From positions 1 to 43,543 of the forward strand of contig CAIYIS010000082.1 of the NCBI GenBank assembly GCA_903926385.1: a DNA stretch of 43,543 nt, given 5' to 3'. Positions 192-43,543 of the stretch are shown piece by piece. How positions within the stretch are numbered: position 1 is the stretch's first letter; every line of letters starts with the position of its first letter. Origin of the DNA: an uncultured Bacteroidota bacterium. Its GTDB lineage: Bacteria; Bacteroidota; Bacteroidia; 2-12-FULL-35-15. Position numbers and translations under genes: made by a program. Below the pieces are notes generated by a model. That model was not told where the DNA came from and searched no databases. It saw nothing but the letters and a program-made list of their open reading frames with translations.

Positions 192-240
192 TCTAAAAAT
201 CTCACCTCTAAAATTCTAAAATTCCCATCTCCACACCCAT

Positions 241-591
241 CCAAGACCTCTCGACACCCATCCAAGACTTCTCGACACCCATCCAAGACTTCTCGACACG
301 TATCCAAGACCTCTCGACACGCATCCAAGACCTCTCGACACGCATCCGAGACTTCTCGACACGCATCCGAGACCTCTCGACATCCATCCGAGACCTCTCG
401 ACACTCATCGGAGACTTCTCGACACGCATCCGAGACTTCTCGACACGCATCGGAGACCTCTCGACACTCATCCGAGACCTCTCGACACTCATCGGAGACT
501 TCTCGACACGCATCCGAGACTTCTCGACACGCATCGGAGACCTCTCGACACTCATCCGAGACCTCTCGACACCCATCGGAGACTTTTCCAC
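241..591. repeat. 21-bp tandem repeat array 1 (16 units)
   Basis: Sixteen contiguous 21-bp units run from 241 to 576, followed by a decayed seventeenth. The conserved core is GAGAC(C/T)TCTCGACA, which holds a short dyad GAGA-CY-TCTC. Variation is confined to about five positions. Units 9-12 (409-492) and 13-16 (493-576) match almost exactly, so an 84-bp block was duplicated. Imperfect ~35-bp direct repeats flank the array (191-226 and 607-642). Because the unit is a multiple of three and lacks stops, long ORFs run through it on the minus strand with the heptapeptide pattern M-x-V-E-K/R-S-x; I do not call these genes. Confidence 0.95.
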
Positions 592-18611: not shown

Positions 18612-19262
18612 TTAAAGCGCTTCCACCGTTACCACTTCGCTATAGGTTAAATCGGTGTCGGTGCCCATGGCAAACGACACAAATTTATAGGATTTGCCTT
18701 TAGTAAAACCTTCAATTTCGCCATGGCGGTGGCCTGCATAGTAAAATTTCCAGTTTGCAGGATTCAAATCAGGATTGGTAGCATCGGTATACATTACCGC
18801 ATATCTCAAATCGTTTCCTTTAACTTTGGTAATAAAAAACTCCATTTTATTAACGATGGTTAAACTAAAAACGGTTAATGTAGATTGTTCTAATTTACCC
18901 TGTGCTTCACTTTCTTTTTGCAACGGGTAACCTGTTTTTTTTAGTAATCCTAAATCTCCGTTACAAAAAGTATTGAGCCAGTTACCGTTTTTGGTTATCA
19001 CTCGTTGGATGTTGTTATGAGCCGTATTGGTATCGGCCACTTGCCCTGCATAAGGGGCTCCCAAACGAATAACATTGTAACGGTTTATTAAATCGCCCAA
19101 CGTGTTGGGAGGAAGAGGCCCCATTACTCCCATGGCCACCGGAATACCAGGAAAGGAACCCGAATTAGCTGTTAAAAGATTAAAAATGATAGTTACTGCA
19201 TCCGAAAACAAAGGTTCGGAAAGCCCACTCAAATCGGTGTTTAGTTTAGGTAGTTTTGCCAT
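18612..19262 (-). CDS. Fibronectin III-like protein of unknown function
   Basis: 216 residues, no signal peptide. The N-terminal ~120 residues are mostly helical and match a pattern I know from uncharacterised Bacteroidota proteins (PLPPNTLGDLINRYN ... NIQRVITKNGNWLNTFCNGD ... LLKKTGYPLQKE). The C-terminal ~90 residues look like one fibronectin III-type beta sandwich (YAVMYTDATNPDLNPANW, GFTKGKSYKFVSFAMG). No catalytic motif is visible. The gene lies directly downstream of 21-bp array 2, and a similar-sized protein (42305-42976) lies downstream of array 3. A promoter at 19691-19716 would make the array part of its leader. Confidence 0.72.
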   Translation of the reverse strand: MAKLPKLNTDLSGLSEPLFSDAVTIIFNLLTANSGSFPGIPVAMGVMGPLPPNTLGDLINRYNVIRLGAPYAGQVADTNTAHNNIQRVITKNGNWLNTFCNGDLGLLKKTGYPLQKESEAQGKLEQSTLTVFSLTIVNKMEFFITKVKGNDLRYAVMYTDATNPDLNPANWKFYYAGHRHGEIEGFTKGKSYKFVSFAMGTDTDLTYSEVVTVEAL

Positions 19263-19360: not shown

Positions 19361-19627
19361 ATTTCCTCCAATCAGTCATCAATTGCCTCCCATCAGCATG
19401 TAATTGCCTCCAATCCATCTCCAATTGCCTCCAATCAATCACCGATTGCCTCCAATCAGTCTCCGATTGCCTCCAATCAGTCTTCAGTTGCCTCCAATCA
19501 ACCTCCGATTGCCTCCCATCCATCTCTAATTGCCTCCAATCAGTCTCCGATTGCCTCCAATCAGTCATCGATTGCCTCCAATCAATCTCTAATTGCCTCC
19601 CATCAGCTTCCGATTGCCTTCCTTCCG
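19361..19627. repeat. 21-bp tandem repeat array 2 (about 12.7 units)
   Basis: Units start at 19361 and repeat every 21 bp. The first 14 nt, ATTGCCTCC(A/C)ATC(A/C), are nearly invariant and hold a dyad ATTG-CCTC-CAAT; the last seven nt vary from unit to unit. The array lies about 100 bp upstream of the fibronectin-like gene. On the minus strand an open frame (19293-19649) reads D-W-R-Q-x-x-x heptads and ends 30 nt before that gene, but the array is open in other frames too, so coding is not demonstrated. Confidence 0.95.
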
Positions 19628-19690: not shown

Positions 19691-19716
19691 CAAAGGTATG
19701 CCTCAAAATACATCAA
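19691..19716 (-). promoter_or_regulatory. Promoter, TTG-N15-TACCTTTG, upstream of array 2
   Basis: On the minus strand TTG (19714-19716) and TACCTTTG (19691-19698) are 15 nt apart. Transcription would pass through array 2 into the fibronectin-like gene. The box overlaps an 18-nt motif (19695-19712) that recurs upstream of array 3 at 43331-43348. Confidence 0.6.
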
Positions 19717-19863: not shown

Positions 19864-20304
19864 TTATGGTTTTCTGATTAAAATTCGTACTACCGTTTCT
19901 TCGCTATTTACCTTCTGAGATTTTTCGCGGAGCCGTTTGATGGCAGATTGAAACTGATTGGAAACACAGGAAGTCTCAACCCCTCTGGCCTTTGCAATTT
20001 CTGCATGGTCTTGATATCGAAATTTAAGTATTATATTCTCTTTTTCGCAAGGCGTTATTCCAAATTTGGCACAATTAAGCTCGATGTATTTCATCATAAT
20101 TTCATCATATTTTTTAATGATAAAGTCTTCATCCACCACTTCAACCTGTTGCACATAATCTGCTTTTGCTTTATATTTTAAAAACTCTTTACTTTTAACC
20201 AAAAGCTTTATTTGTTTTGATTTTTTACGCGGGGTTATTCCTACAATACTCATAGTATGAATAACCTTCAAGTTTCGAACGAAACGAAAAATAAAAGATT
20301 CCAT
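19864..20304 (-). CDS. Small helix-turn-helix regulator
   Basis: 146 residues. The C-terminal half has a sigma-70 region 4 or LuxR-like HTH: CEKENIILKFRYQDHAEIAKARGVETSCVSNQFQSAIKRLREK, with a recognition helix around VSNQFQSAIKRL. The N-terminal part is basic with no recognised sensory or receiver domain. A later ATG (20253, MSIVGITPRKK) is a plausible alternative start. It lies upstream of array 2 on the same strand, and a LuxR-type HTH gene lies in the same relation to array 3. Family assignment (sigma-like or LuxR-like) is uncertain; a DNA-binding role is likely. Confidence 0.68.
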   Translation of the reverse strand: MESFIFRFVRNLKVIHTMSIVGITPRKKSKQIKLLVKSKEFLKYKAKADYVQQVEVVDEDFIIKKYDEIMMKYIELNCAKFGITPCEKENIILKFRYQDHAEIAKARGVETSCVSNQFQSAIKRLREKSQKVNSEETVVRILIRKP

Positions 20305-32809: not shown

Positions 32810-32853
32810 AATATTTATTTTTATATCTATATTATTTTCAAAATCTGTTTCGT

Positions 32854-33021
32854 CTTATCTGTTTCTGCACACATGCAGAATTGGAATTAGCACCTTCAGG
32901 AGAAATTATATATGCTGAATTATACATTATGAATTCATTTATAATTCACGATTTATAATTTACAATTTCTCTGCGGTTGCTAAGGTTTCACAGGGCCAAT
33001 CCCTCCACCTTTCTTGATAAG
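32854..33021 (-). ncRNA. SAM-I (S-box) riboswitch upstream of metH
   Basis: Minus-strand sequence carries the S-box core: CTTATCAAGA at the 5' end, AAGGTGGAGGGATTGGCCCT, GAAACCTTAGCAACC, then GGTGCTAATTCC and a closing GATAAG pairing with CTTATC (P1). Expected action: AdoMet binding favours the downstream terminator at 32773-32809 and shuts off metH. The arm between the CAACC and GGTGC segments is extended to about 75 nt by an AT-rich inverted repeat centred on GAATTC (about 32895-32970). Confidence 0.93.
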
Positions 33022-33039
33022 TATATAAAGAACGCGGGA

Positions 33040-41459: not shown

Positions 41460-41891
41460 CTAATGAGCCGGCTGAATTATGGTTTTGCTAACGTTTACGA
41501 ACAACTTTTTGGCTAAAGTAGGACTCTGGATGGTGCTTAAAAACTTTTCAAATTCTTTTAATCCCATTAAATTGTACTTTTGGCTGACATCACTAACGGG
41601 CATATCATGAAAAGCCATGTTCCAGCCGGGAAACAAACTTTCAGTTATTTCGCCCTGATGCAATACAATGGGTCCTATGTGTCGTTTGTCGACACTGATT
41701 TTTGAATACAGAGCCAACACCTCTTCTTTTTCGCCTTCCAGTATTTGTAAAAACTCATTTTTATAGGCAAATAAACAACCAGTTATGTTTCGGGCAGGGT
41801 TAGACTCCATCGACTTTTTTACTATATCAATAATATCCTGTTGAGTATTATTTTCGTTGGCAATGCTTTGGTAAATCAATTCATATTTCAT
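41460..41891 (-). CDS. BLUF-domain blue-light sensor
   Basis: 143 residues: a BLUF domain (about 1-95) and a short helical C-terminal cap, with no attached enzyme domain. Flavin-pocket residues are all present and spaced as in AppA: Tyr7 (LIYQSIA), Asn31 (SNPARNITG), Gln49 (FLQILEG) and Trp90 (FPGWNM), corresponding to AppA Y21, N45, Q63 and W104. It should bind FAD and respond to blue light. Such short BLUF proteins signal by protein-protein contact; the partner is unknown, though the LytTR kinase gene is nearby. A TAACTTTG box is at 41919-41926. Confidence 0.9.
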   Translation of the reverse strand: MKYELIYQSIANENNTQQDIIDIVKKSMESNPARNITGCLFAYKNEFLQILEGEKEEVLALYSKISVDKRHIGPIVLHQGEITESLFPGWNMAFHDMPVSDVSQKYNLMGLKEFEKFLSTIQSPTLAKKLFVNVSKTIIQPAH

Positions 41892-42057: not shown

Positions 42058-42302
42058 CACCTCACCCCCTGCCCCTCTCCACAAGAGAGGGGAGCCAGTG
42101 CGTGAAGTAATTTATACAATTAAGTTTTTTGAGTCCTACCCCCTCTCCTTCGGAGAGGGGATAAAGGGGTGAGGTCATTGTAAGCACCTCACCCCCTACC
42201 CCTCTCCGAAGGAGAGGGGGCCAGTGCGTGAAGTAATTTGTACAATTAGTTTTTTTTGAGTCCTACCCCCTCTCCTTCGGAGAGGGGGTAAAGGGGTGAG
42301 GC
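42058..42302. repeat. Tandem pair of BIME-like elements
   Basis: Two copies (42058-42174 and 42186-42302, about 128-bp period). Each begins CCTCACCCC, has a REP hairpin (CCCCTCTC... arms), a conserved spacer (AGTGCGTGAAGTAATTT and beyond), a second hairpin in opposite orientation, and ends GGGGTGAGG. Each copy is thus itself an inverted repeat. A decayed fragment precedes it (42034-42056). The stretch 41892-42304 holds no gene. Confidence 0.85.
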
Positions 42303-42304
42303 CC

Positions 42305-42976
42305 CTATATTATCTTAACACTACAAGGCAAACTTTCAGGGCCGGCTTCTCCGCGGGGGTTGAGGTAATAGCATATTACATACACCATTTTCCCGGCTTG
42401 TCCGGCTGTAAACAATAGCTCAAACTCTGTTTGTTTTACAGGGTCGAGTTTTATATAATCTGTTTCTATGGGAGGTGGTGCGCCCACACCCACTATAGCC
42501 ATTTTAACTCCTACACTTCCCACATCAGTTGGTTTGCCTTTTTTAAAAGGATTGGTGGTATCGAAGGCAATAAACTTCATGGTGAGAGGAGAAATTTTTA
42601 CACACAGCACAGCCGGAGTAATGGTTGGAACTGGTACACGACTTCTATGAGGTTTGTCTTCGGGCATGCCCAAATTTATGCGGTCGGCTCCGGTAAGTAC
42701 TACAGATGTGTTGGCTTTAATTTGTTTCTTAAAAGCTTCCACCAATGCATAACAGTCTGCATAACTCACATTCATGTCGTTTACACTACCCGAATTATGC
42801 GTGTCGGGCGCTGCATAAAGCAATAAATTGTCGTTAAAAGTTACTGACTTGTCGTTCATGTCGGTTTTCTGAGCAGCCGAAATACCTAGCCGTGCAGCCA
42901 CACCTGTGCGGTTTATATAAGCCGCAAAAGCGATAAAGTAAAAATTGAATTGCAAAATTAAGTTTGATAAATTCAT
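42305..42976 (-). CDS. Fibronectin III-like protein of unknown function
   Basis: 223 residues. A hydrophobic N terminus (LSNLILQFNFYFIAFAAYI) precedes a helical region with YADCYALVEAFKKQIKANTSVVLTGADRINLGM, then VPVPTITPAVLCVKISPLTM. The C-terminal ~100 residues look like a fibronectin-type beta sandwich ending KMVYVICYYLNPRGEAGPES. Only general design (size, helical N half, fibronectin-like C half) is shared with 18612-19262; clear sequence homology is not visible by eye. No enzyme motif. It lies downstream of 21-bp array 3, with the BIME pair just past its stop. Confidence 0.7.
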   Translation of the reverse strand: MNLSNLILQFNFYFIAFAAYINRTGVAARLGISAAQKTDMNDKSVTFNDNLLLYAAPDTHNSGSVNDMNVSYADCYALVEAFKKQIKANTSVVLTGADRINLGMPEDKPHRSRVPVPTITPAVLCVKISPLTMKFIAFDTTNPFKKGKPTDVGSVGVKMAIVGVGAPPPIETDYIKLDPVKQTEFELLFTAGQAGKMVYVICYYLNPRGEAGPESLPCSVKII

Positions 42977-43123
42977 AATCTTTAAAGTTATTTATTATTA
43001 ATACTACTATTTATTTACCCCGTACCCTATGTTAACCGACTGCCCAAACGGGTATTGAACAATCGTAAAACGTTGATAATCTATTCCTATTGCTTTGCCT
43101 CAGCTTCTCGACAGAAGAAAAAT

Positions 43124-43228
43124 CCTTCCCATTTAAACAAGAAGCTCTCCCGTTTAAACAAGAAGCTCTCCCGTTTGAACAGGAAGCTCTCCCGTTCAAA
43201 CACGAAGCTCTCTCGTTCAAACGGGAAG
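43124..43228. repeat. 21-bp tandem repeat array 3 (5 units)
   Basis: Units at 43124, 43145, 43166, 43187 and 43208 follow CTCTCCCGTTTAAACA plus five nt ending GAAG. The core GTT(T/C)(A/G)AAC is an 8-bp palindrome. The array lies about 150 bp upstream of the fibronectin-like gene. Open frames cross it on both strands, but I do not call them genes. Between the array and the gene (42977-43123) I see no other feature. Confidence 0.93.
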
Positions 43229-43266
43229 CTTTTGGCAAAATTTCAGAGAACTTTCTGTCGACACCA

Positions 43267-43274
43267 CAAAAGTA
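43267..43274 (-). promoter_or_regulatory. -7 promoter box upstream of array 3
   Basis: Minus-strand TACTTTTG matches TAnnTTTG, 39 bp upstream of the array. No -33 element at 15-20 nt. Transcription would cross the array into 42305-42976. Confidence 0.45.
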
Positions 43275-43346
43275 GATGCAATATTTTATTTCGGATAGGT
43301 TAGCTTGCCTGATTTTAAAAACAATTTTGAGGTATGCCCTGAAATA

Positions 43347-43371
43347 CAAAAAGCCCTGTTTTAAAGGGCTT
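43347..43371 (-). terminator. Intrinsic terminator of the LuxR-type gene
   Basis: On the minus strand AAGCCCT/AGGGCTT (7 bp) with a 7-nt loop is followed by TTTTTG. It lies 37 bp past the stop at 43408, upstream of the array 3 promoter box. Confidence 0.8.
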
Positions 43372-43407
43372 GGGGGCTATATGGGCAATTAAAGGGCAGT
43401 TCACTTT

Positions 43408-43543
43408 CTAAGGCAAAAACCGCGAACGCACGTCTCTATCATCCTTTACGCGTAATTTTTTCAGAACATTTAGGCAATGCGTATCCACTGTTTTCTTATC
43501 TACAATCACATGTATCCTTTTAAACAACTGAGCGCCCATCTTA
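43408..43543 (-). CDS. C-terminal end of a LuxR-type HTH regulator (partial)
   Basis: 44 residues run in from the window edge to a TAG at 43408-43410. QLFKRIHVIVDKKTVDTHCL then NVLKKLRVKDDRDV matches the end of a LuxR/GerE HTH, whose recognition helix starts at K-T-V-x-x-H. The N-terminal part (receiver or other sensor) is outside the window. It is upstream of array 3, as the HTH gene at 19864-20304 is upstream of array 2. Confidence 0.65.
   Translation of the reverse strand, partial: KMGAQLFKRIHVIVDKKTVDTHCLNVLKKLRVKDDRDVRSRFLP

Follow-up and report, generated by a model that had tools for sequence, protein, structure and literature searches.

Tandem arrays of 21- to 22-bp period and changing sequence precede a family of helical-bundle and fibronectin-like genes in Bacteroidia

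At the right end of a 43,543-nucleotide stretch of DNA from an uncultured Bacteroidota bacterium (GenBank assembly GCA_903926385.1, contig CAIYIS010000082.1), which was analyzed whole and is called the window here, a tandem array of 21-bp units lies between the end of a regulator gene and a gene for a fibronectin-like protein. This locus raises the question of what such an array might do and whether it would act as DNA, as RNA, or as a translated peptide. An earlier note on this DNA had suggested that the locus is one copy of a recurring module whose fibronectin-like gene carries a variable array in its transcribed leader, and had offered operator sites for the neighboring helix-turn-helix (HTH) protein, an RNA element, and a translated heptad peptide as possible functions of the array.

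All elements described for the module at 42.3 to 43.5 kb were found on the minus strand in the order and at the positions given. The window is the whole of contig C82 in a 4.27-Mb genome of 85 contigs, so that the LuxR/GerE-type regulator gene at the head of the module (43408 to 43543) is truncated by the contig end. The remnant (43542 to 43408) holds the last 44 residues, 22 of which match the C-terminal half of the Pfam GerE domain with an E value of 0.0014, short of the curated cut-off. Downstream are a hairpin resembling an intrinsic terminator (AAGCCCT/AGGGCTT with a T run after it; 43348 to 43371), an 18-nt motif, TGTATTTCAGGGCATACC (43331 to 43348), and TACTTTTG (43267 to 43274), a Bacteroidetes -7-like box of the form TAnnTTTG about 36 bp 5' of the array. 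The array, detected by TRF at 43127 to 43230, contains 5.0 units with an 89% match and is two-fold symmetric (dyad P = 0.037; folding z of -4.06 relative to column-permuted repeats). An inverted repeat encloses it, with the left arm TCGACAGAA at 43253 to 43261 and the right arm TTCTGTCGA at 43108 to 43116. A leader motif, TATTAATAATAAATAA (42988 to 43003), stands shortly 5' of the ATG of a 223-codon gene (42305 to 42976), which we refer to as class A.

The second copy reported at 18.6 to 20.3 kb is likewise present and laid out as the 42.3-kb module, again on the minus strand. It begins with a gene for a 146-residue HTH-like protein (19864 to 20304) that has no Pfam match of its own and is 40% identical to the upstream neighbor of another array module (L079). 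The 18-nt motif (19712 to 19695) here overlaps the box TACCTTTG (19698 to 19691), together occupying 19691 to 19712, and is followed by a TRF-detected array of 12.3 21-bp units (19361 to 19619) and a 216-codon gene, class B (18612 to 19262). The two 18-nt motifs agree at 15 of 18 positions, as had been noted, but the exact motif is not general and occurs at few loci. A third TRF-detected array, of 17 21-bp units (228 to 583, minus strand), has an 88% copy at positions 41523 to 41785 of contig C33. Because the first 923 nucleotides of the window are about 93% identical to C33 around 41.2 to 43.1 kb (L190), where the array precedes a gene of 304 codons, a whole module has been copied, with the window copy cut before its gene. 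Judged from this alignment, the third array probably belongs to the leader of a gene of class C, a kind described below, that the contig end cuts off.

The proteins encoded behind the arrays share an architecture. AlphaFold2 predicted the class A protein with confidence (pLDDT of 93.9) as an N-terminal helical bundle (residues ~5 to 102) joined to a C-terminal beta sandwich (114 to 223), and the fair model of the class B protein (pLDDT of 87.3, pTM of 0.54) likewise contains a bundle and a sandwich. As modeled, the C-terminal domains of both classes are fibronectin type III (FN3) folds, matching solved FN3 domains with Z of 12.0, rmsd of 2.1, and 93 aligned positions for class A and Z of 13.3, rmsd of 1.8, and 90 aligned positions for class B. 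At the sequence level, 11 of 33 class B members match Pfam fn3, and neither window protein does. The shared FN3 fold places these proteins beside other FN3-domain proteins, from which they differ in that the fold is joined to a helical bundle for which no family was found in Pfam, NCBIfam, or PHROGs, the last two returning only weak, chance-level matches. A search for phage, plasmid, or viral origin gave no matches. The helical domain has a mean net charge of -1.5 in class A and +1.9 in class B, which is not telling for nucleic-acid binding. The products of further array genes in the same genome, grouped as class C by eye and from one weak Pfam match, seem to combine an extended helical part and a different beta domain. 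Three minus- or plus-strand genes for proteins of about 300 residues behind arrays are likely members of a sister class (L143, 15866 to 16771, minus; L148, 12432 to 13325, minus; L190, 2016 to 2927, plus), and one of these proteins has a weak CarboxypepD_reg-like match in its C-terminal beta domain.

In its own genome, the 42.3-kb protein has nine close paralogs and the 19-kb protein two to three, and nearly all of these paralogs are preceded by a 21-bp array. Relatives of the 42.3-kb gene are many and occur across the class Bacteroidia; those found with names belong to uncultured "Bacteroidetes bacterium" genomes, whose isolate names can be read as indicating a freshwater origin of the lineage. 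We gathered family members with profiles of both groups, from relatives and from the class, and compared the 98 full-length members having at least 400 bp of upstream sequence with 114 other open reading frames (ORFs). A strong array repeating at 21 bp or a multiple of it preceded 77 of the 98 family genes and 9 of the 114 controls (Fisher P = 1e-27), and the nine positive controls were mostly divergent neighbors of the same array. Among the other 21 family genes, 5 had another strong period (41, 44, 62, 66, or 83), 7 had a weak array, with a multiple of 21 as the period in 5 of the 7, and 9 had none. These results carry the claim of a repeated module with a variable array far beyond the window.

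The period is fixed within lineages: 21, 42, 63, or 84 bp in family f1 and others and 22, 44, 66, or 88 bp in genus g9. The g9 loci with a period of 22 (also 43, 44, 66, or 88) and not 21 are L164, L170 to L172, L174, L177, and L180, and several g9 loci have XRE regulators 41 to 77 bp upstream of the array. Over all loci, the median array is 234 bp long and ends a median of 152 bp before the ATG, and a typical array has about 12 units of 21 bp, with up to 12 to 19 units observed. The arrays have a defined place between box and gene. TAnnTTTG boxes 50 to 150 bp 5' of arrays were found 24 times in the sense and 8 times in the antisense orientation and were rare between array and ATG. Since these promoter-like boxes lie 5' of the arrays, the arrays probably fall in transcribed leaders. 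Two further motifs were noted: A[AT]TAATAA lay no farther than 80 bp from the ATG in 30 of the 123 family genes and in 14 of 287 other genes, and GGCATAC, in the sense orientation only, preceded 7 of the 98 arrays.

Whether arrays also occur away from these genes was addressed in 400 kb of the same genome chosen without regard to the finding. This survey contained about 17 distinct arrays with a period of 21 or near a multiple of it and few arrays of other periods. Eight preceded a gene (three of FN3 type, three of about 300 residues resembling class C, and two for secreted proteins), two followed an FN3-like gene, six were orphans, and one was unassigned. A check for preferred neighbors, which the earlier note had proposed, therefore gave a divided answer: an array accompanies almost every family gene, yet a family gene follows only some of the arrays, which are not exclusive to the family. 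One surveyed orphan lies directly 3' of a LytTR-type response regulator gene. Orphan arrays of 21 or 42 bp, several of them between convergent genes, include L136 (2584 to 2911), L142 (6785 to 7060), L143 (1744 to 1854), L149 (722 to 793), and L151 (7693 to 7821). By eye, some of their units resemble those of gene-linked arrays (L136 and L137 at 17048, L149 and L147 at 9258, and L142 and L006). The arrays 3' of an FN3-like gene are at L133 (1768 to 2061), 151 bp past the stop codon, and at L147 (9258 to 9424), 38 bp past it.

The period bears directly on the proposal of a translated heptad peptide. Divisibility of 21 by 3 fits such a peptide, as do some arrays, among them the 19-kb and 43-kb ones, that are open in one frame. 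As a general function, however, the peptide is ruled out because one genus uses a 22-bp period, and stop codons interrupt every sense frame in 53% of arrays, open frames (0.64 compared with 0.55 expected) showing no clear excess. We give this reading practically no chance. A guide-type array of the CRISPR or TIGR kind, yielding small RNAs that would work together with the FN3 protein, is scarcely more probable: the array adjoins a protein gene and a transcribed leader is likely, but the units are near-identical head-to-tail copies without spacers, and the two window arrays tested (43127 to 43230 and 19361 to 19619) have no other significant match anywhere in their own genome. Nor was a nuclease or Nop domain found in the protein, and none of 53 class A members matched a PADLOC defense model. 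CRISPR arrays, by comparison, have unique spacers, and TIGR-Tas systems pair a spacer-containing dual-repeat array with a Tas protein that has a Nop domain (PMC12045711); the arrays here have no spacers, and the proteins are helical and FN3 without a Nop match.

We next turn to the upstream neighbors, which a sequence-specific operator would implicate. The upstream gene could be read at 91 array loci; at 48 of them a co-directional gene lay within 400 bp of the array, and at 43 none did. DNA-binding regulators made up at least 21 of the 47 scanned co-directional upstream neighbors and 1 of 47 downstream neighbors (Fisher P = 8e-7), and the upstream matches were LytTR (11), LuxR/GerE (5), and XRE-like HTH_3 (5), with others matching HTH_23/28 or sigma-70 region 4. 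Due to this upstream enrichment with several unrelated families, the regulator is a real but family-interchangeable part of the module. The view of the arrays as operators for the linked HTH regulator only draws on the same neighborhood, on LytTR sites of matching spacing, and on the loci L004 and L005, whose downstream genes are 82% identical but whose arrays and upstream genes differ. Array similarity nevertheless tracks the downstream gene and not the regulator, similar arrays occur with different regulator classes (L007 and L039 have a GerE-like and a LytTR-type upstream neighbor, respectively), and many modules have no regulator. For the suggestion that the array is an operator for its HTH neighbor, the neighborhood is suggestive but covariation gives no support, and we regard an operator for that regulator only as quite unlikely.

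Determination of the array by regulator class was not supported: with class labels assigned partly by eye besides Pfam matches, and at gene identities below 50%, arrays with the same regulator class (mean z of 0.59) were not clearly more alike than those with different classes (0.39). Among homologous upstream pairs, array similarity did not correlate with regulator similarity. As these regulators are 30 to 58% identical at best, the binding sequence may have changed between homologous regulators.

Unit sequences are unrelated between most loci, and what is kept across arrays is their period, place, and two-fold symmetry. Symmetry was assessed against controls in which repeat columns were permuted identically in all units, which preserves the repeat. 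Folding energies were lower than in these controls (mean z of -2.5), and Watson-Crick dyad scores were higher (mean z of 2.2), with P < 0.05 in 57% of 76 arrays. Inverted repeats enclosing the array with a score of at least 9 occurred at 22% of loci, compared with 4.8% for mismatched flanks, and at several loci had the form CCTCCATTTT-array-AAAATGGAGG. Such self-complementarity could also serve an RNA leader element, in which the transcribed array would fold into hairpins or a long stem to control translation, termination, or mRNA stability; the promoter boxes upstream of the arrays, the enclosing repeats, and the conserved A[AT]TAATAA near the ATG accord with it. Three tests of strand asymmetry gave this part of the earlier proposal no support. 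Folding showed no strand bias, with the sense strand better than the antisense strand in only 54%, symmetric positions had no wobble excess (134 G.T and 124 A.C), and polymorphism within arrays had no wobble bias (56 and 52). Rfam has no family at the arrays. We therefore consider an RNA leader unlikely, and two-fold symmetry without strand bias points to DNA rather than RNA folding.

The arrays turn over fast. Array similarity declines smoothly as downstream genes diverge, from a mean z of 3.4 above 75% gene identity to 2.6 at 65 to 75%, 1.6 at 55 to 65%, and about 0.2 below 35%. A fixed correspondence between array and encoded protein was rejected, as genes for pairs of proteins 74 to 82% identical can carry unrelated arrays; in the clearest such pair, L004 and L005, the arrays differ between conserved flanks. 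This smooth decay is also expected under neutral descent and leads to the main rival, a serious one, in which the arrays are a neutral or selfish minisatellite accumulating in the long, weakly constrained leaders of genes that duplicate fast, slippage and unequal exchange fixing the period and keeping units alike and quasi-palindrome correction producing the symmetry. The arrays between convergent genes and before unrelated genes, the symmetry without strand bias, and the copying of a module as a unit are in keeping with such an origin, as is the result that predicted intrinsic bending of the arrays, calculated with wedge parameters, did not exceed that of column-permuted repeats and thus gives no sign of selection for bending. 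A minisatellite accounts less readily for arrays before nearly every family gene and few other genes, for a period that stays at 21 bp even when the sequence is wholly replaced yet is 22 bp in another lineage, g9, and for arrays that sit in a set position, 3' of the promoter box and 5' of the gene, with inverted repeats around them. On this evidence, we hold a neutral minisatellite to be possible but rather doubtful.

The reading that we favor, which accounts for most of the observations and to which we give a probability somewhat short of even, is that the array is a helically phased, multisite DNA element that controls the downstream gene and is read by its spacing and symmetry more than by its sequence. 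Its sites would lie about two helical turns apart (21 bp, or 22 bp in one genus) in leader DNA, within a cassette comprising a small exchangeable DNA-binding regulator, a promoter, the tandem site array, and the helical-bundle and FN3 gene. The array would act as DNA, bound cooperatively by a protein, be it the regulator of its cassette, the product of the downstream gene, or a host factor, and this protein would set expression of the downstream gene and recognize the array mainly by spacing and symmetry. Several results count against such a geometry-read element: array similarity does not track regulator class, 43 of the 91 loci lack a co-directional gene within 400 bp, paralogs up to 82% identical can have unrelated arrays, arrays occur off family genes, and symmetric positions within arrays show no compensatory covariation, with observed values slightly below expectation. 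In a broader form, possible if somewhat doubtful, regulator-array-effector cassettes would be widespread in Bacteroidia and their cis element defined by spacing and symmetry; the array could turn over completely, and a regulator of another family could take over, without loss of control of the helical-FN3 gene.

Among known systems, LytTR regulation and TAACTGA heptamer repeats come closest. LytTR sites are direct repeats with 11 to 13 bp between them, and in Bacteroides 11-bp repeats lie 11 bp apart (PMC6193735), a spacing that yields a period of 21 to 22 bp. The resemblance lies in a LytTR-type regulator beside repeats of about 21 to 22 bp, and LytTR was the commonest upstream match here (11 of 47). 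Known LytTR sites, however, are one repeat pair near -35 in the regulator's own operon, whereas the arrays have many units, up to 12 to 19, 3' of promoter-like boxes in the leader of another gene; other regulator families are found at many loci, and the window itself has a GerE end and an HTH-like protein. In one genome, TAACTGA heptamers stand as tandem direct repeats in many intergenic leaders, and they are also found in some Bacteroidetes (MacGregor 2015, PMC4679880). They are a fixed 7-bp sequence before unrelated genes, in contrast to the units here, which are 21 to 22 bp long, share no sequence, and precede members of one gene superfamily; these units are not TAACTGA, and multiples of 7 bp other than multiples of 21 are not among the top periods. 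A RemA-type regulator binds poorly conserved repetitive DNA (PMC8481266) and is a precedent in principle only. REP/REPIN and MITE-like repeats are also symmetric, dispersed, and copied within a genome, but the arrays here have no common sequence family and lie in gene leaders.

The literature searched for 21-bp tandem repeats in Bacteroidetes, which covered few subscription papers and preprints, contained no description of such arrays or of the cassette. Within that limited literature, what appears new is the arrangement and an array that retains its geometry but not its sequence. If functional, the arrays would represent a bacterial control element whose period, symmetry, and place are conserved while its sequence is not, so that standard motif searches would not find it. 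The roughly 100 different arrays would then form a natural series for asking how spacing and symmetry are recognized by DNA-binding proteins and how a period outlasts replacement of its sequence. If the arrays are neutral, the data set describes a 21-bp minisatellite tied to one gene family. The linked genes form a large unnamed superfamily without assigned function, with at least 10 copies per genome in several species.

Other features of the window were observed near the modules or apart from them. The recent duplication at 1 to 923 starts close to the stop codon of a WG-repeat gene and includes, upstream of the array, a 43-codon ORF (MIVELILMLVALIALLYNTGYTTKYSIF...) and a hairpin resembling a terminator. 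Right 3' of the class A gene, at 42058 to 42301, a GC-rich inverted-repeat element (CCCCTCTCC...GGAGAGGGG) is present in two copies of 127 bp. An Rfam scan also identified a SAM riboswitch (RF00162, 78.1 bits) on the minus strand at 32852 to 33023.
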